Of a stretch of 64,000 nt of DNA, positions 33,989 through 44,271 are shown piece by piece. The notes beneath the pieces were generated by a model. The model was given only the letters and a program-made list of their open reading frames with translations. It had not been told where the DNA came from and did not search any database. Numbering within the stretch: position 1 is the stretch's first letter; each line of letters starts with the position of its first letter. The position numbers and the translations under genes were made by a program. Source of the DNA: Rhodobacterales bacterium HKCCE4037. Lineage in GTDB: Bacteria > Pseudomonadota > Alphaproteobacteria > Rhodobacterales > Rhodobacteraceae. Location: contig WVSM01000003.1 in assembly GCA_015689645.1 (NCBI GenBank), positions 372,001 to 436,000 on the forward strand, given 5' to 3'.

Positions 33989-35584
33989 TTATTCAGCGGG
34001 GACCAGGTCGGAGGTGGGCTTCGCGCCCGCCGACCGAACGGTCATCCAGAGGTTCCAGGCCATGATCAGCGCGCCGGAGAGGAACATGACCCCACCCAGT
34101 CCGCGGACCACGTACATCGGGAATTTCGCTTCCACGGTGTCGGCGAAGGAGTTCACGAGGAAACCCTGCGCGTCGACTTCGCGCCACATCAGGCCTTCCA
34201 TGATCCCGGTCACCCACATCGAGGCGGCGTAGAGAACGATCCCCACGGTCGCGAGCCAGAAGTGCCAGCTGACGGCGCGGAGGCTGTAGAGCTTCGTGTG
34301 CCACAGTTTCGGGAACAGGTAGTAGAGCATCCCGAAGGTGATCATCCCGTTCCAGCCGAGCGCGCCCGAGTGCACGTGACCGATGGTCCAGTCCGTGTAG
34401 TGCGACAGCGAGTTCACCGCGCGGATCGACATCATCGGGCCTTCGAAGGTCGACATGCCGTAGAAGGCGAGCGAGGTCACCATCATCCGCAGGATCGGGT
34501 CGGTGCGCAGCTTGTCCCATGCCCCTTGCAGGGTCATCAGGCCGTTGATCATGCCACCCCAGGACGGCATCCACAGGATCACCGAGAACACCATGCCGAG
34601 GGTCGAGGCCCAGTCCGGCAGCGCGGTGTAATGCAGGTGGTGGGGTCCGGCCCAGATATAGAGGAAGATCAGCGCCCAGAAGTGGATGATCGACAGCTTG
34701 TAGCTGTAGACCGGGCGTTCGGCCTGCTTCGGCACGAAGTAGTACATCATGCCGAGGAAGCCCGCGGTCAGGAAGAAACCCACGGCGTTGTGGCCGTACC
34801 ACCACTGCGTCATCGCGTTCTGCACGCCCGAGAACACCTGGACCGAGCGCGAACCCCAGATCGAGACCGGGATCGACAGGTTGTTGACCACGTGCAGCAT
34901 TGCCACCGTGATGATGAACGACAGCAGGAACCAGTTCGCGACGTAGATATGCGGCTCTTTCCGCTTCAAGAGCGTGCCGACATAGACGATCAGGAACACG
35001 ACCCAGACGATGGTCAGCCACAGGTCGACGTACCATTCAGGCTCCGCATATTCCTGGCTCTGCGTGGCACCAAGAAGGTAGCCGGTCGCGGCCATGACGA
35101 TGAAGAGCTGGTAGCCCCAGAAGACGAACCACGTCGCATTGCCGCCCCACATCCGCACCGCGCTGGTGCGCTGCACGATGTAGAACGATGCCGCCAGAAG
35201 CGCGTTGCCCCCGAAGGCGAAGATCACCGCCGAGGTGTGCAGCGGGCGCAGGCGTCCGAAGTTGGCATAGCCCTCGGCCCACTGGAAGTTCAGTTCCGGA
35301 AAGGCCAGCTGGAACGCGATGAAGACACCCGCAAGGAAGCCCACGACACCCCAGAAGGCGGTTGCGATTGCGGCGGCCCTGACGGGTCCGTCCATGTATT
35401 CCCCGGTCGGCACCGCCACGGCAGGCTCGCCCGTGCGGCGGAGCTGCCACAGGAACAGGCCGCCGGCGACCACCATGATAATAAGCGCGTGCAACTTGTA
35501 AGCCGCGTCGAGGCCGTAATTCGCTGCGATGGCAGCGCAAATGGCGACGAGCCCAAGAATGGCGAGCTTTATGTAATCAAGCAT
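33989..35584 (-). CDS. ccoN: cbb3-type cytochrome c oxidase subunit I
   Basis: Catalytic haem b / haem b3-CuB subunit of 531 residues with about 12-14 membrane helices. Ligand-bearing regions include [41 protein letters not shown] and [12 protein letters not shown]. It reduces oxygen to water with high affinity. The ATG at 35584 (MLDYIKLAI) has AAGGGA upstream; a 48-codon in-frame extension runs through the FNR box and is rejected. First gene of ccoNOQP, under an FNR-type box at 35682. Confidence 0.97.
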
Positions 35585-35681
35585 CGTTCGTCCCTTCACC
35601 TTTCCCCGGGGACCGACCGAATCTGGACGGACCACGGGCATTTCTTTGATCCGGGTTTTCGCGATTTCAGCCGGGCAAACC

Positions 35682-35695
35682 TTGATCTGGGTCAA
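35682..35695. promoter_or_regulatory. FNR/FnrL box upstream of ccoN
   Basis: TTGATCTGGGTCAA matches TTGAT-N4-ATCAA with one mismatch. Its centre is about 104 bases upstream of the ccoN ATG, consistent with low-oxygen activation of ccoNOQP. The same 14 bases, with similar flanks, occur between fnrL and hemN. Confidence 0.8.
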
Positions 35696-35710
35696 GCAAG
35701 GGTCAGAAAA

Positions 35711-35738
35711 CGAAAAACGCCCCGGCATTCGGGGCGTT
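35711..35738 (-). terminator. Rho-independent terminator of fnrL
   Basis: Read leftward, AACGCCCC and GGGGCGTT form an 8-bp stem with a seven-base loop, followed by T residues. It separates fnrL from the ccoN promoter, 26 bases past the fnrL stop. Confidence 0.85.
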
Positions 35739-35764
35739 CATGGCACTCTCGGTTCGTGGAGGGG

Positions 35765-36511
35765 TCAGACCAGGACGCCGCCATCCGCATCGTCGCCGGT
35801 TTCGTCGAGGAGAAGATTGAAATCGGGTACGAGGACGCGGCGCTTGCCTTCCAGCCGGATGACGCCGTCCCGCTTCAGGCCCGACATCTGGCGACTGACC
35901 GTTTCCAGCGTCAGGCCAAGGTAATCGGCCATTGCCTCGCGCGTCAGGGGCAGATCGAAGGCGACATCGCTGCCCACTTCGGCGCCATCCGTCGCGCTTT
36001 CGCGCCGGGCGATGATCGACAGGAAACTCGCGATCTTCTCGCGCGCGGTCTTGCGGCCAAGGATCAGCATCCATTCCCGCGCCGCATCCAGTTCATCAAG
36101 CGTCATCTCCAGCAGGCGCTGGCTGATGTGTGGCGTGTCGACCAGCATTTCCTCGAACGGCTTGCGCCTAAAGCAGCACAGGGTCACGTCCGAGACAGCC
36201 GTGACATCATAAGCCACGGTGTTCCGGTTCGGACGGCCAATAAAATCCGAGGCCAGCAGAAGGCCGACCATCTGCCGACGGCCATCTTCCATGGTCTGCG
36301 ACAGCGAAGCCACACCGCCCACAACCGATGCGACGAAATCCATCGCGTCACCGGCCCAGACGATCGTCTCCCCGGCCTTGTAGCTGCGGTAGAACTTGAT
36401 CGCGTTCAGGCGCTCCAGCTCGTCTTCCTCGCACCGGGCGCACACCGCACGGTGCCGGATCGGGCAGGCCGAACAATCGACCTTGTCCAGTTTGAACGCT
36501 GCGTGCTGCAT
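35765..36511 (-). CDS. fnrL: Oxygen-sensing CRP/FNR-family regulator FnrL
   Basis: Global low-oxygen regulator of 248 residues with a [4Fe-4S] cluster and a CRP-type DNA-binding domain. Cluster cysteines are Cys13, Cys16, Cys24 and Cys27 in DCSACPIRHRAVCARC; another pair is at 112-113 (LCCF). The recognition helix has Glu203, Ser206 and Arg207 in LETVSRQ, the pattern that reads TTGAT half-sites. The ATG at 36511 (MQHAAFKL) is chosen; a 20-codon extension runs through the FNR box. Divergent from hemN with a shared box, so it probably controls itself, hemN and both cco operons. Confidence 0.95.
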   Translation of the reverse strand: MQHAAFKLDKVDCSACPIRHRAVCARCEEDELERLNAIKFYRSYKAGETIVWAGDAMDFVASVVGGVASLSQTMEDGRRQMVGLLLASDFIGRPNRNTVAYDVTAVSDVTLCCFRRKPFEEMLVDTPHISQRLLEMTLDELDAAREWMLILGRKTAREKIASFLSIIARRESATDGAEVGSDVAFDLPLTREAMADYLGLTLETVSRQMSGLKRDGVIRLEGKRRVLVPDFNLLLDETGDDADGGVLV

Positions 36512-36545
36512 TTTTGCCCCCGTGTCGCAAGAGCCCGGGCAAATC

Positions 36546-36559
36546 TTGATCTGGGTCAA
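36546..36559. promoter_or_regulatory. FNR/FnrL box shared by fnrL and hemN
   Basis: TTGATCTGGGTCAA, identical to the ccoN box. Its centre is about 42 bases from the hemN ATG on one side and about 41 bases from the fnrL ATG on the other, so it could serve either gene. Confidence 0.82.
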
Positions 36560-36594
36560 GGTGTGCCTCACCGGTCAGCTCTAGTCGTAATGGC

Positions 36595-37944
36595 ATGGAC
36601 AGGTATTATCAAATGCGACGTTTGGGGCTCTTTGAAGCGAACGTGCCCCGTTACACGTCCTATCCGCCCGCCAACCATTTCGCCGGCGACGTCACGCCGG
36701 AGGTGCATCGCGCCTGGCTGGCCTCCATCGCGCCCGGTTCGAAGGTGTCGCTCTATATACATGTACCCTTCTGTAGAAGGCTCTGCTGGTTCTGCGCCTG
36801 CCGCACGCAAGGGATGCAATCCGAAGAGCCCGTCGTCGCCTACACGAACAGCGTCATCCAGGAGCTGCGGACCCTTCGAGGCATTCTGCCGCAGGGGGTC
36901 GAGATCGAGAAGCTGCACTGGGGTGGCGGCACGCCGACGCTTCTGACCGCACCCGAGATCACCCGCCTCGCGGCGGCGATTCGTGACGCGATTCCGCTGA
37001 GCACCACGGCGGAATTCTCGGTCGAGGTCGACCCGAACGAGATCGACGAATCGCGGCTCGACGCGCTGGCCGCCGCCGGCATGGCCCGCGCCTCCATCGG
37101 CGTTCAGGATTTCGACCCCGAGATCCAGAAGATCATCGGACGCGAGCAGAGTTTCGAGGTCACCCGCGCTGCGATCGAAGGCCTGCGGGCCCGCGGCGTG
37201 ACGTCACTGAACACGGATCTGCTTTACGGCCTGCCCCGTCAGACGCAGGAACGCATCACCGCGTCGATGCAGATGCTGCTGTCTTTGAACCCAGACCGCG
37301 TGGCGCTTTACGGCTACGCCCATGTCCCGTGGATGGCCAAACGCCAGGCCCTGATCCCGACCGAGGATCTGCCCGCCCCCGAGGCGCGGTTGAACCTGTT
37401 CGAGACCGCCAGCGAAGTCATGAAGTGGGATGGATACGACAGCATCGGCATCGACCATTTCGCACGTCCCGGAGACTCATTGGCCATCGCCGCGCGCGAG
37501 GGGCGTCTGCGGCGCAATTTCCAGGGCTATACCGACGACACCTGCGACGTGCTGATCGGCGTTGGCGCCTCTTCGATCTCGAAATTCCCGCAAGGCTTCG
37601 TGCAGAACGCCGCGGCGACCGCTGCCTATCAGAAAGCGGTCCGTGCGGGCGAGCTTGCCACCGGCCGCGGCCATGTCCTGACGCCGGACGACGCGCTGCG
37701 CAGCTATGTGATCGAGCGCCTGATGTGCGATTTCGCGGTCAGCCTGTCCGATGACGGCCCGTTCCCGCGCGAAGCGATGGAGCCGCTTCTGCACGACATC
37801 GCGGCCGATTTCGACGGCCACGTGATCCTGAACGACAACGGGCTCCAGATCAGGCAGGCATCCCGTCCGCTCACGCGCCTGATGGCACGCAGCGTGGATG
37901 CCTACACCAGCGCGCAGGCGAAAAACCACTCTTCGGCGATCTGA
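36595..37944 (+). CDS. hemN: Oxygen-independent coproporphyrinogen III dehydrogenase
   Basis: Radical-SAM enzyme of 449 residues that makes protoporphyrinogen IX without oxygen. VPRYTSYPPANHF and the cluster motif CRRLCWFC (Cys60, 64, 67, then Cys69), followed by LHWGGGTPTLL and SVEVDPNEID, are typical of HemN. Start uncertain: the ATG at 36595 is used, but a class II FNR promoter from the box at 36546 would begin transcription about there, leaving no leader. The ATG at 36613 (MRRLGLFEANVPRY) is a good alternative. Ends three bases before convergent yejF. In Rhodobacter the equivalent is also called hemZ. Confidence 0.95.
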   Translation: MDRYYQMRRLGLFEANVPRYTSYPPANHFAGDVTPEVHRAWLASIAPGSKVSLYIHVPFCRRLCWFCACRTQGMQSEEPVVAYTNSVIQELRTLRGILPQGVEIEKLHWGGGTPTLLTAPEITRLAAAIRDAIPLSTTAEFSVEVDPNEIDESRLDALAAAGMARASIGVQDFDPEIQKIIGREQSFEVTRAAIEGLRARGVTSLNTDLLYGLPRQTQERITASMQMLLSLNPDRVALYGYAHVPWMAKRQALIPTEDLPAPEARLNLFETASEVMKWDGYDSIGIDHFARPGDSLAIAAREGRLRRNFQGYTDDTCDVLIGVGASSISKFPQGFVQNAAATAAYQKAVRAGELATGRGHVLTPDDALRSYVIERLMCDFAVSLSDDGPFPREAMEPLLHDIAADFDGHVILNDNGLQIRQASRPLTRLMARSVDAYTSAQAKNHSSAI

Positions 37945-37947
37945 GGC

Positions 37948-39855
37948 TTACGCTGCCCCGGCACGATCCCCGAACGCGGCAGCCATCAGTTGCCGCGTGT
38001 ATTCGTGCTGCGGATTGTCGAACAGCGCGTTCGTTTCGCCGGCCTCCACCACGTCGCCCTGTTTCATCACGATGACCTTGTGGCTGAGGGCCCGCACGAC
38101 GCGGAGGTCGTGGCTGATGAACAGGTAGGCGAGGTTGTGGTCGCGCTGCAGCTTGCGCAACAATTCAACGATCTGCACCTGCACCGTCATGTCGAGCGCG
38201 CTTGTCGGCTCGTCCAGCACAACCAGCCGGGGCCGCAGGATCATCGCGCGCGCGATGGCGATGCGCTGGCGCTGCCCGCCCGAAAATTCGTGCGGATAAC
38301 GCTCCATCATGTCGCGGCGCAGTCCCACCTCGTCGAGGATGTCGCCCACCCTTTCGCGGCGTTCGCGCGGGCCGACGCCCTGCACTTTCAGACCTTCCGA
38401 AACGATCTGCTCGATGGTCATGCGCGGGCTGAGCGATCCATAGGGGTCTTGGAACACGATCTGCATGTCCCGTCGCACGCTGCGCAATTCCGCCTTGGTC
38501 TTGCCCTCCAGGCTGTTGCCCACGAAGGTGATTGGCCCCTCCGACCGCACCAGCCGCATGATCGCCAGCGCCAGCGTCGTCTTGCCCGAGCCGCTTTCGC
38601 CCACGATCCCGAGCGTTTCGCCCTGTTTGACCGTGATACTCGCGGCATTCACCGCCTTCACGTGACCCACGGTCCGCCGCAGCAAGCCGCGCTGGATCGG
38701 GAACCAGATGCGCAGGTCTTCGGTGCTGAGGATCTGCTCGGCCTCGGCGGGCACTGGATCTGGCGATCCGGTCGGCTCGGCCCCCAGCAATTTCTTGGTA
38801 TAGGCGTGCTGCGGATTGTCGAAAATCTCGGACGTGACACCCTGTTCCACGATCTCGCCGCCCTGCATCACGCAGACCCGGTCGGCGATGCGGCGCACGA
38901 TGGCAAGGTCATGGGTGATGAACAGAAGGCTCATCCCCTCGGTCCGCTTCAACTCCGCCAGCAGGTCCAGGATCTGCGCCTGGATCGTCACGTCGAGCGC
39001 CGTTGTCGGCTCGTCCGCGATCAGCAGCTCTGGCCCGTTGGCTAGCGCCATTGCGATCATGACCCGCTGGCGCTGCCCGCCCGACAGCTGGTGCGGATAG
39101 GCCCCAAGCCGCGTTTCCGGATCCCGGATCCCCACCTTGTTCAGCAGGTCGAGAATGCGCCGTCGCAATTCGGAATCCACGACGTCGGTGAAACCGAACG
39201 CCTTCAGGATGAATTTGAGCACAAGCAACGGCACCGCGATGATCGCAGTCCACAAGGCAGCGTGAAAGACAGCGCCGATCAGGCTCACAACGATGAAAAC
39301 GAGCAGGCCGACGTCACTGGTGATGTCGGCAACCGTGGCACGGATGAAGCCAAAGGTCTCCGGTTGGATGATCGTGTAGATGTAGGCGAGAATGATCGAC
39401 AGCAGGCCGAAGATCGCCAGCAGCACCGGAACCGGATTGCCGCCGGCAATCGCGCTGGCCGAACGCAGCAGGGCCCCGGGATATTTGTAGCCCCCATGTT
39501 CCACGAGGCTTTCGGCCATCTGTTTCTCGATCGTGTGGAGCGGGTTGAGCGACGTCATCGGCTCCTGGAAGATGAAGCTGATGTCGTTGCCCCGAACACG
39601 CCGAAGCTCCACATCCGATGCGCCCACCATCTCGGCCCCGTCGTATTTGACGGACCCACCGACCTGCGCGGACCCCGGCAGAAGGTCGACCGTGGCAAGC
39701 GCCGTGACGGACTTGCCCGACCCGGACTCACCGACAAGCGCCACCGTCTCGCCCCGGTCGACATGGAACGACACGCCGCGCACCGCGTGAACGGTGTTGC
39801 CTTCCTGCGAAAAATCGACGGTCAGGTCGCGGATATCGAGGACGCGGCGGCTCAT
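37948..39855 (-). CDS. yejF: ABC peptide transporter fused ATPase YejF with hydrophobic insertion in domain 1
   Basis: Twin-ATPase subunit of 635 residues for the YejABEF importer. Domain 1 has Walker A GESGSGKS (42-49), Q-loop [13 protein letters not shown], signature LSGGQRQRV (257-265) and Walker [13 protein letters not shown]. Domain 2 has its own [17 protein letters not shown] and [12 protein letters not shown]. Between the Q-loop and the first signature, residues about 121-228 are an extra block (DNA about 39172-39495). It contains hydrophobic stretches [40 protein letters not shown] and [16 protein letters not shown], which look like membrane segments. Usual YejF proteins are about 530-540 residues with a short helical link there. 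The insertion is in frame. The ATG overlaps the yejE stop. Confidence 0.9.
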
Positions 39856-41171
39856 GTGAAAGTCTTCCGTGGGTCGAACGCGTCGCGCACGCCTTCGAAG
39901 ATGAAGACCAGCAGCGACAGCATGAAGGCGAAGGTGAAGAAGGCGGTGAAGGCCAGCCACGGCGCCTGAAGGTTGTTCTTGGCCTGAAGTGTCATCTCCC
40001 CCAGCGACGGCTCCGACGAGGGCAGACCGAATCCGAGGAAGTCGAGCGAGGCGAGGCCCGCGATCGTGCCGGTCACGATGAAGGGCAGGAAGGTCAGTGT
40101 CGCCACCATCGCGTTGGGCAGGATGTGGCGGAACATGATCGTGCCGTTGCCCACCCCCAGCGCACGGGCGGCACGGACGTATTCGAAGTTCCGCGCGCGC
40201 AGGAATTCGGCCCGCACCACGCCGGTCAGGTTCATCCAGCCGAAGAACACCATCAGGCATACCAGCAGCGTGAAGTTCATCGGGAAGATCGCGGCGACGA
40301 TGATGATGACGTAAAGGCTCGGCGTGGCGTTCCAGATCTCGATGATGCGCTGCCAGATCAGGTCGACAAGGCCGCCGAAATACCCCTGCAAGGCGCCCAT
40401 GAAGATGCCGATGATCGAGGTGAAGAAGGTCACGATCAGGGCGAAGCTGACAGACAGCTCGAACCCGTAGATCACCCGCGCCAGCACGTCGCGCGACGTG
40501 TCGTCGGTGCCGAGCAGGTTGGTGCCGCGCTTATCTTCCGGCAACAGGCCGAAGTTCCAGTCGATCACCGGCTGGTCGGTTTCATCCAGCACGGTTTCAC
40601 CGGCCGCATCGGTCTCGACCTCCGGCCACCAGCCGATCACGTTCGGGGGCGCAGGGGCCACGCCGGGCCGGTCGACGATGGTGTTGTAGCTGTGTGGGAT
40701 CAGCGGCCACATGATCCAGCCTTCGATCACGAATTCGCCGTTGTAGGTGCCGGTCTCCTCGACCTCCGCGATCACGCCCTCCGGGTCGTCCCAGCAATCT
40801 TCCAGTCCGCCCGAGATGATGAGGCATTGCACCTCGACATCGCGGTAAACGGCCTCGGTCCGGAAATCGCCGCCAAACGCGGTTTCCGGATAGAAGTTGA
40901 AGATCGGCGTGTAGAACTCGCCCTGGTAGCGGATCAGCAGCGGCCGGTCGTTGGCGAGATATGGCGCGAGCAACGACAGGCCGTAAAGCACAAGGAAGAT
41001 CCAAAGCGACCAGAACGCGCGGCGGTTGCGCTTGAAGTTGCGCCAGCGGCGGCGGTTCAGCGGGCTGAGCCAGCCGCGCCGGTCACCGCGCACGCGCCCA
41101 TGGCTTTCGACGGCGTCAGGCTCGTCGTCGGGCAGCGGCGGGGTCTTCGGGTTTTCGCTGGGAAGGGCCAT
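39852..41171 (-). CDS. yejE: ABC peptide transporter permease YejE
   Basis: Inner-membrane permease of 439 residues, OppC-like. A cytoplasmic N-terminal tail leads to RRAFWSLWIFLVLYGLSLLA. The large periplasmic region contains FNFYPETAFGGDFRTEAVYR, typical of YejE, and a Cys pair, QCLIISGGLEDC. Further helices and the EAA-type loop ARALGVGNGTIMFRHILPNA follow. The ATG at 41171 (MALPSENP) is chosen. Overlaps yejF by four bases. It forms the channel with YejB. Confidence 0.92.
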   Translation of the reverse strand: MALPSENPKTPPLPDDEPDAVESHGRVRGDRRGWLSPLNRRRWRNFKRNRRAFWSLWIFLVLYGLSLLAPYLANDRPLLIRYQGEFYTPIFNFYPETAFGGDFRTEAVYRDVEVQCLIISGGLEDCWDDPEGVIAEVEETGTYNGEFVIEGWIMWPLIPHSYNTIVDRPGVAPAPPNVIGWWPEVETDAAGETVLDETDQPVIDWNFGLLPEDKRGTNLLGTDDTSRDVLARVIYGFELSVSFALIVTFFTSIIGIFMGALQGYFGGLVDLIWQRIIEIWNATPSLYVIIIVAAIFPMNFTLLVCLMVFFGWMNLTGVVRAEFLRARNFEYVRAARALGVGNGTIMFRHILPNAMVATLTFLPFIVTGTIAGLASLDFLGFGLPSSEPSLGEMTLQAKNNLQAPWLAFTAFFTFAFMLSLLVFIFEGVRDAFDPRKTFT

Positions 41172-41175
41172 CGCG

Positions 41176-42330
41176 CTACCTCTCCAACGATTCGAAGTCG
41201 ATGCGCGGGTCGATCCACACATACATCAGGTCGGATATGATCCCGACCGTCAGGCCGATCAGGCTGAACACGAAGAGCGTCCCGAAGACCACCGGGTAAT
41301 CGCGGCTCACCACCGCCTCGAAGCCAAGCCGCCCAAGCCCGTCGAGCGAGAAGATCGTCTCGATGATGAGCGAGCCGCCGAAGAACACGCCGATGAATAC
41401 CGCCGGGAAGCCCGCGATCACGATCAGCATCGCGTTGCGGAAGACATGCCCGTAAAGCACCCGCCGCTCGGTCAGGCCCTTGGCCTTCGCGGTCATCACG
41501 TATTGCTTCTTGATCTCGTCGAGGAAGGAGTTCTTCGTCAGTAGGGTCAGCGTGGCGAAGGCCGAGATGGTGGAGGCCAGAACCGGCAGGGTGATGTGCC
41601 AGAAATAGTCGAGAATCTGCTGGATCAGGTTCATGTCCTCGAACCCGTCCGAGGTCAGCCCGCGTAACGGGAACCAGCTCAGGTATCGCCCGCCCGCGAA
41701 GACGACCAGCAGGATGATCGCGAACAGGAAGCCGGGGATCGCGTAGGCCACGATGATGATGCCGCTGGTCACGCTGTCGAACTTCGTGCCGTCCCGCACC
41801 GCCTTGCGGATGCCGAGCGGGATGGAGACGATGTAGGCGATGATCGTGGACCACAGGCCAAGCGTGATCGACACGGGCATCTTCTCGATCACGAGGTCGA
41901 CCACGGAGATCGAGCGGAAATAGCTCTCGCCGAAATCGAAGCGCAGGTAATCGAGCATCATCAGCCCGAACCGTTCTAGGATCGGGATCTGCTCGGCCAT
42001 GCATTCCTCGGCGTCCAAGTCGGGAGTGCCGGTGAAGCCCTCTTCGCAGACGATGCGGGCGAAATTGAATTCCACCTGCAATTGTTCGAGGAACTGCGGC
42101 GGAAGCCCCCGCGCGCCCTGGTATCCGACGTCGAAATCCGAATTGGCAGCGGCGTTGTCTCCGCCACCGCCCGAGATCCCGGCAAAAACATCGCCGTCGC
42201 CTTCCAGCTGCGCGATGATCTGGTCGATCGGACCGCCCGGCACGAACTGGATCAGAACGAAGTTCAGCAGCATCACGCCGAAGATCGTTGGAATCACCAG
42301 CAACAGCCGTCGAAGGATATACGCGCCCAT
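41176..42330 (-). CDS. yejB: ABC peptide transporter permease YejB
   Basis: Inner-membrane permease of 384 residues, OppB-like, starting YILRRLLLVIPTIFGVMLLN, with a Gly/Asn-rich periplasmic insert after the first helix. It then has the EAA-type region AKAKGLTERRVLYGHVFRNA and FGGSLIIETIFSLDGLGRLG. Four bases upstream of yejE and 15 bases downstream of yejA. Confidence 0.93.
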   Translation of the reverse strand: MGAYILRRLLLVIPTIFGVMLLNFVLIQFVPGGPIDQIIAQLEGDGDVFAGISGGGGDNAAANSDFDVGYQGARGLPPQFLEQLQVEFNFARIVCEEGFTGTPDLDAEECMAEQIPILERFGLMMLDYLRFDFGESYFRSISVVDLVIEKMPVSITLGLWSTIIAYIVSIPLGIRKAVRDGTKFDSVTSGIIIVAYAIPGFLFAIILLVVFAGGRYLSWFPLRGLTSDGFEDMNLIQQILDYFWHITLPVLASTISAFATLTLLTKNSFLDEIKKQYVMTAKAKGLTERRVLYGHVFRNAMLIVIAGFPAVFIGVFFGGSLIIETIFSLDGLGRLGFEAVVSRDYPVVFGTLFVFSLIGLTVGIISDLMYVWIDPRIDFESLER

Positions 42331-42345: not shown

Positions 42346-44271
42346 TCAGATTGCGCCGGCGTCCCGCAGGGCCTGCTCCGCTTCGGGATCGACCCACCAG
42401 AAATCGAGGAAACCGAGCGAATAGGGCGGAAGCTCCTCGGGGTAGCGATACAAGTCGTAATACGCGACCCAATGAGAGTCGTTATACCATTGGCCGACGC
42501 GGATGACCCGGTCGCGCAGCACCCGGTCGAGCGCGCGGACGGCCACGTCGAGTTCTTCCCGCGTTTCCGTGGCAATCACCGCCTCGATCAATGCGTCGAC
42601 GCCCTCGTCTGCAAGGCCAGGCACGTTGAACAGGCTCTCGTCCGCGCCAAGCGAACCGAAATACTGGCGCAGACCCGAACCGGGCTCGTATCCCATCGCG
42701 AAATGATCGGTGATCATGTCGAAGTCCGCATCGCGCTGGCGCTGCTGCTCCTGCGCGTTGTCGACCCGGCTCATGGAGGCATTCACGCCGATGGCGCGCA
42801 GGTTCTCGACGTAGGGGTTGATGATCCGGTCGAACAGCGGCGACGAATTCAGGAATTCGACGTCCAGCGTCTGACCCGCCTCGTTGCGCAGCAAACCGTC
42901 ATCGCTCGGCACCCAGCCCGCTTCCTCCAGGAGCGCCAGCGCGCGGCGCGATTGGCGACGATCCAACGCTCGCTCGGGGCTCGACTCGGGGACGGTGAAC
43001 GCTTCCTCTGTGAAGACCGTTTCGGGAAGCTGGTCGCGGAATTGCTCAAGCAACGCCAGCTCTTCACCCTCGGGCAGGCCCTCGGCCTCCATCCAGGTGT
43101 TTTCCCAGAAGCTGACGACTGGCGAATAGAGACCGTAGAACAGCGTCTCGTTGGTCCACTCAAAGTTGAACATATGCGCCAGCGCGCGGCGCACGCGGAC
43201 GTCCTGGAACTGCGGACGGCGCAGGTTGATCATGAAGGACTGGCCGCTGGCGATGGTGCCGTCCGGCAGCTCCTCCTGGATGACGGTGCCGTCTTCCAGC
43301 GCCGGGAAATCGTAATTGTTGGCCCAGGCCTGCGACGAGCTTTCCTGGCGGAACAGGTAATTCCCGGCGGTGAACCCTTCGAACGCGGCAAGGCTGTCGC
43401 CGTAATACTCGATGCGGATCGAGTCGAAATTGTTGCGGCCCTGCGTGATCCACAGATCTTCGCCCCAGTAGTCGCGGTTCCGCGTGTAGACGACGCGCTG
43501 TCCCGGCTCGACCTCACCCAGAACGTAGGGACCGGAGCCCACCAGCGGTTCCAGCCGGCTGTCCTCGAACGACAGGCCCGAGGCTTCGTGGCTGGCCTGG
43601 CTGAACACCGGCAGGCCACCGGCGCTCTGGATCCGGTCGCGCAGCGGGGAATCGGGGTTGAAATCGAAGCGGATGCGCCGATCGTCCAGCACTTCGGCGC
43701 TGGCGATGGTGTTGGGGATGTTCGCGCGGAAAGACGGCAGCCCCTCGTCGCGCAGGATCTCGTAGGAGAACATCACGTCCTGCGCCGTCATCGGCGTGCC
43801 GTCCGAGAAGGTGACGTTGTCGCGCAAGGTGAAGATCACATAGGACCGATCCTCGGGATAGGCGAATTCCTCGCACAACAGGCAATAGGCCGACCCGATT
43901 TCGTCCGCAGTGCCTTCCAGCATCGCCTCGAAGAAGATTGACGACAGAACCGCGGGGCGGCCGATGCGCGAATAGGGATGCATCGAGTCGAAAGAGCCAG
44001 AGGACCATGAGAACGACATCTCGCCGCCCTGTGGCGCGTCCGGGTTGACGTAGTCGAGATGCGGACTGTCGGGGCCGTAGCGCAATTCGCCGAAGGTCGA
44101 GATGCCGTAGGTGTGGATCAGGCCATCTTCGCCGACCTCCTGCGCATCGCTTGCAAACGTGCCGAGCGCCAGAACCAGCGCGGCACCAGCCAACGGCAGG
44201 GTCAGCGCGCCCCATCGGCGGGCATGGTCTTCGTTTGCGCTGACGACTCTGGCTTCGCTCCGGTCCTGCAT
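42346..44271 (-). CDS. yejA: ABC transporter periplasmic peptide-binding protein YejA
   Basis: Family 5 solute-binding protein of 641 residues. The signal region is long (basic residues to about 20, then LTLPLAGAALVLALGTFASDA, cleavage near AQE). Landmarks include HTYGISTFGELRYGPDSPHL, FYPE-type DAPQGGEMSF, SGPYVLGEVEPGQRVVYTRN and FFDxxxY-like YFGSLGADESLFN near the C-terminus. Binds oligopeptides or peptide-like compounds such as microcin C relatives. Heads the leftward yejABEF operon. Confidence 0.92.
   Translation of the reverse strand: MQDRSEARVVSANEDHARRWGALTLPLAGAALVLALGTFASDAQEVGEDGLIHTYGISTFGELRYGPDSPHLDYVNPDAPQGGEMSFSWSSGSFDSMHPYSRIGRPAVLSSIFFEAMLEGTADEIGSAYCLLCEEFAYPEDRSYVIFTLRDNVTFSDGTPMTAQDVMFSYEILRDEGLPSFRANIPNTIASAEVLDDRRIRFDFNPDSPLRDRIQSAGGLPVFSQASHEASGLSFEDSRLEPLVGSGPYVLGEVEPGQRVVYTRNRDYWGEDLWITQGRNNFDSIRIEYYGDSLAAFEGFTAGNYLFRQESSSQAWANNYDFPALEDGTVIQEELPDGTIASGQSFMINLRRPQFQDVRVRRALAHMFNFEWTNETLFYGLYSPVVSFWENTWMEAEGLPEGEELALLEQFRDQLPETVFTEEAFTVPESSPERALDRRQSRRALALLEEAGWVPSDDGLLRNEAGQTLDVEFLNSSPLFDRIINPYVENLRAIGVNASMSRVDNAQEQQRQRDADFDMITDHFAMGYEPGSGLRQYFGSLGADESLFNVPGLADEGVDALIEAVIATETREELDVAVRALDRVLRDRVIRVGQWYNDSHWVAYYDLYRYPEELPPYSLGFLDFWWVDPEAEQALRDAGAI

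Follow-up and report, generated by a model that had tools for sequence, protein, structure and literature searches.

How does the ATPase of a peptide importer, a kind of subunit regarded as soluble and joined to its permease solely via coupling helices, come to contain a membrane-type stretch inside its first nucleotide-binding domain (NBD1)? This question is raised by yejF in the 64,000-nucleotide stretch of DNA from Rhodobacterales bacterium HKCCE4037 analysed here, hereafter the window. A first-pass annotation had described a hydrophobic, in-frame block of about 108 residues in NBD1, and the block is confirmed by alignment and by its occurrence in seven congeneric genomes. Its coordinates (39172-39495) were correct and are refined to 39169-39495 (Table 1). 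The block itself comprises 109 residues, but the net gain in length is slightly lower, 102 amino acids relative to insertless congeners (linker of 119 versus 17 residues) and 100 in the congeners G400 and G401, because a few native linker residues have been replaced.

The genes surrounding yejF follow the order yejA-yejB-yejE-yejF on a single strand, with matches to SBP_bac_5 and BPD_transp_1, as expected for a gene coding for YejF, and the ATG of yejF overlaps the stop codon of yejE. Both nucleotide-binding domains carry the Walker A, Q-loop, signature, Walker B and H-loop motifs of Opp/Dpp-type two-NBD importer ATPases; those of NBD2 were judged from the ABC_tran match, which falls in two stretches of YejF, and from reading of the alignment. 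In NBD1 all five motifs are intact and align with their counterparts in E. coli YejF and DppD, in agreement with the annotation, which had found the first four undisturbed. The best-scoring NCBIfam model for the protein is NF011713 (YejF), at 699 bits against a curated cut-off of 834; two insertless congeners also fall below this value (741 and 739 bits, compared with 1100 for E. coli YejF), so that the low score is attributed to divergence and not to the insert alone. Beside yejF (33989-37944) are found genes coding for a COX1-family oxidase, a Crp-type regulator and a radical SAM protein, the last of which converges on yejF and resembles hemN, the oxygen-independent coproporphyrinogen oxidase. 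E. coli YejF (b2180, from the YejABEF importer) shares with the window protein the two fused domains, the motifs, the gene order and 54% identity. The YejBEF of Agrobacterium is the same YejABEF-type peptide importer and is reported to recycle muropeptides together with YepA, which is itself reported in nearly every family of Rhizobiales and Rhodobacterales (PMC9790009).

Table 1. Features of the yej locus and of the insert-bearing YejF in the window.
Feature	Position	Strand	Basis or remark
yejF coding region, stop excluded; 635 aa with two fused ABC nucleotide-binding domains	37951..39855	-	
yejF stop codon	37948-37950	-	
yejE permease gene	39852..41222	-	mechanical ORF; true start may lie downstream
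yejB permease gene	41176..42330	-	
yejA-like solute-binding protein gene	42346..44271	-	
Walker A of NBD1, residues 42-49	39709..39732	-	
Q97, Q-loop glutamine of NBD1	39565..39567	-	alignment
NBD1 signature LSGGQ, residues 257-261	39073..39087	-	
NBD1 Walker B, last residue E282 aligned with DppD E179	39010..39027	-	
Inserted block, residues 121-229 (109 residues)	39169..39495	-	alignment
Short amphipathic helix, residues 128-138, before first membrane-type helix	39442..39474	-	AlphaFold2; moment 0.41
First membrane-type helix, residues 141-163 (23 residues)	39367..39435	-	hydrophobicity, charge, AlphaFold2
Helix in acidic inter-helix loop, residues 166-179; periplasmic if hairpin inserted	39319..39360	-	AlphaFold2, charge
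Second membrane-type helix, residues 184-219 (36 residues), basic near end	39199..39306	-	AlphaFold2, charge

The block follows H120 and runs up to the next native helix, which starts at about residue 228, and occupies a position where E. coli YejF and the insertless congeners have a short linker. It is not general to YejF: E. coli K-12 and six of the 13 congeners are without it, as are, judged by length, many homologues from the wider family and class. Stretches of 19 residues with a Kyte-Doolittle mean above 1.6 are confined to residues 134-226 of the protein. The dip in base composition noticed earlier is real, with a G+C content in 150-base windows of 0.55-0.57 at the block versus 0.60-0.71 across the remaining yejF, and of 0.586 for the whole insert versus 0.649 for the remainder of the gene. 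It is not distinctive, and we reject it as a sign of recent foreign origin, because comparable dips (0.57-0.59) occur in the adjoining yejE and because the deficit is absent in four of the seven carriers, whose inserts have a G+C content equal to or above that of the rest of yejF.

A search for known domain families in Pfam, NCBIfam, PHROGs and the sequences of the PDB gave no significant profile match for the block. The window block had no match in Pfam, where the best E-value across the seven blocks was 0.14, and its best E-value against NCBIfam was 0.055; against PDB sequences the best E-value was 3. The PHROGs family phrog_2203, annotated as 'membrane protein', weakly matches six of the seven blocks (best E 0.0075), the window block not being among them, and this similarity perhaps reflects mere common hydrophobicity. 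Searched against its own genome the block matched only itself, and searches against plasmids and viral contigs returned no match.

The two or three membrane-length stretches proposed by the annotation are reduced to two, because residues 183-200 and 201-219 are modelled as a single helix of 36 residues. AlphaFold2 predicted YejF with a mean pLDDT of 83.9 and a pTM of 0.71, the block itself reaching only about 55-72, from an alignment of 13 rows (the window, two Roseicyclus loci and ten more distant sequences) of which three contain the insert. The isolated 141-residue piece, modelled from three rows, gave near-identical helices at a mean pLDDT of 61. Additionally, the flanks of the hydrophobic pair are net positive and the loop between them net negative in all eight inserts tested, seven from the genus and one from G385, a genome of another genus. 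Such a pattern fits a topology in which both ends of the block are cytoplasmic, as an intact NBD1 requires, and the two-helix hairpin favoured by the annotation, which leaves the two halves of NBD1 on the same side of the membrane, agrees with the charge pattern and with the AlphaFold2 model. Hydrophobicity, charge and model thus point to YejF as a putative integral membrane protein, and from them we infer insertion into the bilayer.

The position of the block bears on what such a hairpin could do. In E. coli Dpp, residue E114 of DppD is reported to bridge K243 of DppB, a contact with the permease (PMC12136057). E115 of the window YejF aligns with DppD E114 and the block starts six residues later, at residue 121, so that the loop carrying it adjoins the permease contact. 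From there a hairpin could reach the bilayer. The top structural matches of the model are OppD and DppD of M. tuberculosis, followed by OppF, DppD and OppD of E. coli among others, and the DppD and OppD proteins of both species (PDB 8z1v, 8z21, 8wd9 and 8j5q) share with YejF a common NBD fold. E. coli DppD has no comparable insert in the alignment, and Rv1281c likewise has none when aligned to an insertless protein. In contrast to the membrane-type block of the window YejF, E. coli DppD and DppF and M. tuberculosis OppD carry iron-sulfur domains, which are reported to stabilise the complex, M. tuberculosis DppD having none (PMC12136057). A literature search by title or abstract opening, with subscription papers and preprints outside its scope, found no account of such an insert in YejF or in another NBD. 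Grafted domains are known from other ABC ATPase heads, such as the coiled coils of Rad50 and SMC proteins, the arm of ABCF proteins and the chromodomain of EF3; those grafts are soluble, whereas the one in the window YejF is of membrane type.

A protein search found yejF in all 13 congeneric genomes, in one of them as a fragment. The block is carried by seven, each with one open frame free of stops and frameshifts and a linker of 117-119 amino acids, and the blocks of the genus are 30-65% identical to that of the window. Five congeners have a linker of 17 amino acids and the thirteenth, G398, has a yejF split across two contigs with a short linker, which brings the insertless congeners to six. 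In the public genome set, relatives of the block that bear a name come from two uncultured Roseicyclus assemblies, both among the seven carriers. Because seven of the 13 genomes carry the block in frame, an assembly error is ruled out, and the probability of an artefact of assembly or annotation is negligible. The carrier and non-carrier forms of yejF stand side by side within one genus (loci L003-L014 and L093). Two segments found in the genus are missing from G385, one in YejB with paired cysteines and one in YejE some tens of residues long.

A single gain within the genus was rejected. The genus tree, built from YejB, YejE and YejF without the block for 12 of the 13 genomes plus G385 (G398 was omitted because of its split yejF), requires three changes, at least two of them forced by the starred branches, and none of the bootstrap trees (0%) is compatible with one change. 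Recent transfer inside the genus was rejected as well, the silent divergence of the block being about equal to that of the rest of yejF, which is mostly saturated. Since silent change between lineages is near saturation in both, the block is considered old.

The block evolves faster than the remainder of YejF, with ratios of amino-acid to silent change of 0.07-0.74 versus 0.016-0.156, and its ratio is below 1 in all 20 defined pairs of carriers (1 of the 21 had no defined dS). Two membrane-grade segments are present in all seven blocks of the genus on both the Kyte-Doolittle and the biological scale. As an open frame must persist regardless, it was the membrane pattern that was tested by neutral simulation, with cut-offs set after the real values had been seen: at 62, 40 and 31% identity, the number of neutral runs, out of 1000, that kept the two segments was 45-48, 7 and 2-3 by the biological scale, and 336-364, 75-83 and 29-35 by the Kyte-Doolittle scale. 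The hydrophobic pattern persists better than neutral drift predicts. An anchoring role, or a regulatory contact with YejB or YejE, had also been suggested by the annotation. This idea fits the position of the block beside the coupling-helix contact, but not a single residue of YejB separates the seven carriers from the five non-carriers. Three such sites occur in YejE, all in variable stretches, and 11 in YejF, five of which fall in or just before the linker; with none in YejB and only these three in YejE, no partner interface is visible and the suggested contact is one that we infer.

Taken with these observations, our best reading, to which we give a probability of about 0.6, is that the block is a transmembrane two-helix hairpin that would make YejF integral and anchor NBD1 beside YejB. 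The hairpin, with both ends cytoplasmic, would lie in the loop of the NBD1 helical subdomain that follows the coupling-helix-contact helix, and would turn YejF from a peripheral into an integral ATPase. It would keep NBD1 near the permease, by analogy near YejB, and a complex with NBD1 so anchored may assemble or remain coupled more stably. Counting against this reading are the low pLDDT of the block, the lack of a co-varying residue in YejB, its fast evolution in the genus, its absence from six congeners and a second helix longer than a membrane crossing needs. That same helix, with its basic end, could partly lie on a surface, and the low model confidence allows other packing; the block might then be a hydrophobic helical extension that stays on the cytoplasmic face, packed on the permease or on NBD2, and crosses nothing. 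We regard this as improbable in view of the two separate membrane-grade stretches with positive flanks found in every member of the genus. Somewhat less probable again is a tolerated insertion that has no role and stays in frame only through being part of a needed gene, which would account for the patchy occurrence, the rapid evolution and the lack of a known family. It sits poorly with a pattern that persists down to 30-31% identity, where neutral runs lose it in 997-998 of 1000 cases on the biological scale and, with cut-offs chosen once the real values were known, in 965-971 on the Kyte-Doolittle scale, and also with the intact motifs of NBD1 and the like inserts that other genera carry at this site.

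Two such genomes from other genera were identified. G385 has a hairpin-like insert of similar length at the identical site of YejF, and G004 has one with a longer loop, together with a second insertion in NBD2. The G004 insert shows the same charge pattern, flanks positive and loop negative, and its second segment is only marginally hydrophobic. The YejF of G159 (L077:1-120) starts at a contig edge within a linker longer than the family norm, and this genome may be a further carrier. An extra stretch of NBD2 ahead of the Q-loop, about 25-45 residues by eye, was seen in G152, G227, G064 and G004 (L074, L075, L076 and L124:772-2898).

Inserts of the genus, G385 and G004 have at most faint sequence similarity, and separate gains in the three lineages are apparently the simplest reading of the sequences. 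It is possible, but on balance doubtful, that those of the genus and G004, perhaps also of G385, are remote homologues, one old module spread by recombination or repeatedly lost. Scored as a profile against G004, the inserts of the genus reach 21.84, more than any of the 48 membrane-pair windows used as controls (maximum 16.89), controls that are few and partly overlapping, and a GW[RK] pattern can be seen by eye near the insert start in G401, G385 and G004. The scores of the genus against G385 (12.57) and of G385 against G004 (10.95) lie within the control range, being reached by 22 and 42 of the 48 windows. In the YejF tree without the linker, moreover, the three lineages stand apart among insertless rows, many deep forks of this tree being unresolved; 13 of the 30 family loci entered the YejF trees, the others having failed the pattern. 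Finally, the linkers of insertless congeners resemble those of other family members, so that loss would demand near-exact restoration.

The extent of the phenomenon was examined in family, order and class. The block sequence was detected in 2 of 394 family genomes, both from the window genus, and in 390 genomes of the order it was limited to the five carriers sampled, two weak matches outside the genus (E 0.004 and 0.009) falling on other ORFs of membrane type. In 29 of 30 family loci, 72 residues extend from FQEPM to VMIAM (L059 did not match the pattern); since these loci are the best matches of an insertless query, a choice that favours short linkers, this shows constancy of length among such loci and not frequency. 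A YejF match was obtained in 362 of 388 family genomes, and the best-scoring rows listed show no large extra length by eye. The re-query covered 66 family genomes: 42 with weak scores, 20 of the 26 in which no match had appeared, and four congeners. This screen rests on the low score of split matches, the window genome itself giving 732 bits. It brought up G385 among the low scorers. G004 passed no cut-off and escaped the re-query too, presumably because its two inserts split the match, and came to light in a later search; further carriers may therefore be hidden. YejF matches are cut by or start at a contig edge in G159, G166, G301 and G061 and are partial in G147. With the G385 insert as query over 19 genomes, no match was found in G159, and weak matches appeared at a second locus of G385 itself and in G061. 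In the class, 230 of 320 genomes had a YejF match at 1e-150, of which 80 were re-queried and the remainder read by eye; apart from the window genome no large extra stretch was seen, the largest being about 31 amino acids (G863).

We advance only tentatively, as a possibility we hold somewhat unlikely, the broader proposal that a peptide importer's ATPase became an integral membrane protein on at least three separate occasions within a single bacterial family, each time through the graft of a hairpin into the same coupling-contact loop, adding a third membrane element to permease-ATPase coupling beyond the two classical coupling helices. A recurrent hairpin at the joint of ATPase and permease would be a natural test of the consequences of membrane tethering for assembly, ATP use and transport, with insertless sister species serving as controls. 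Moreover, given the role reported for YejBEF in muropeptide recycling in Agrobacterium (PMC9790009), its effect may be readable in the recycling of the cell wall.
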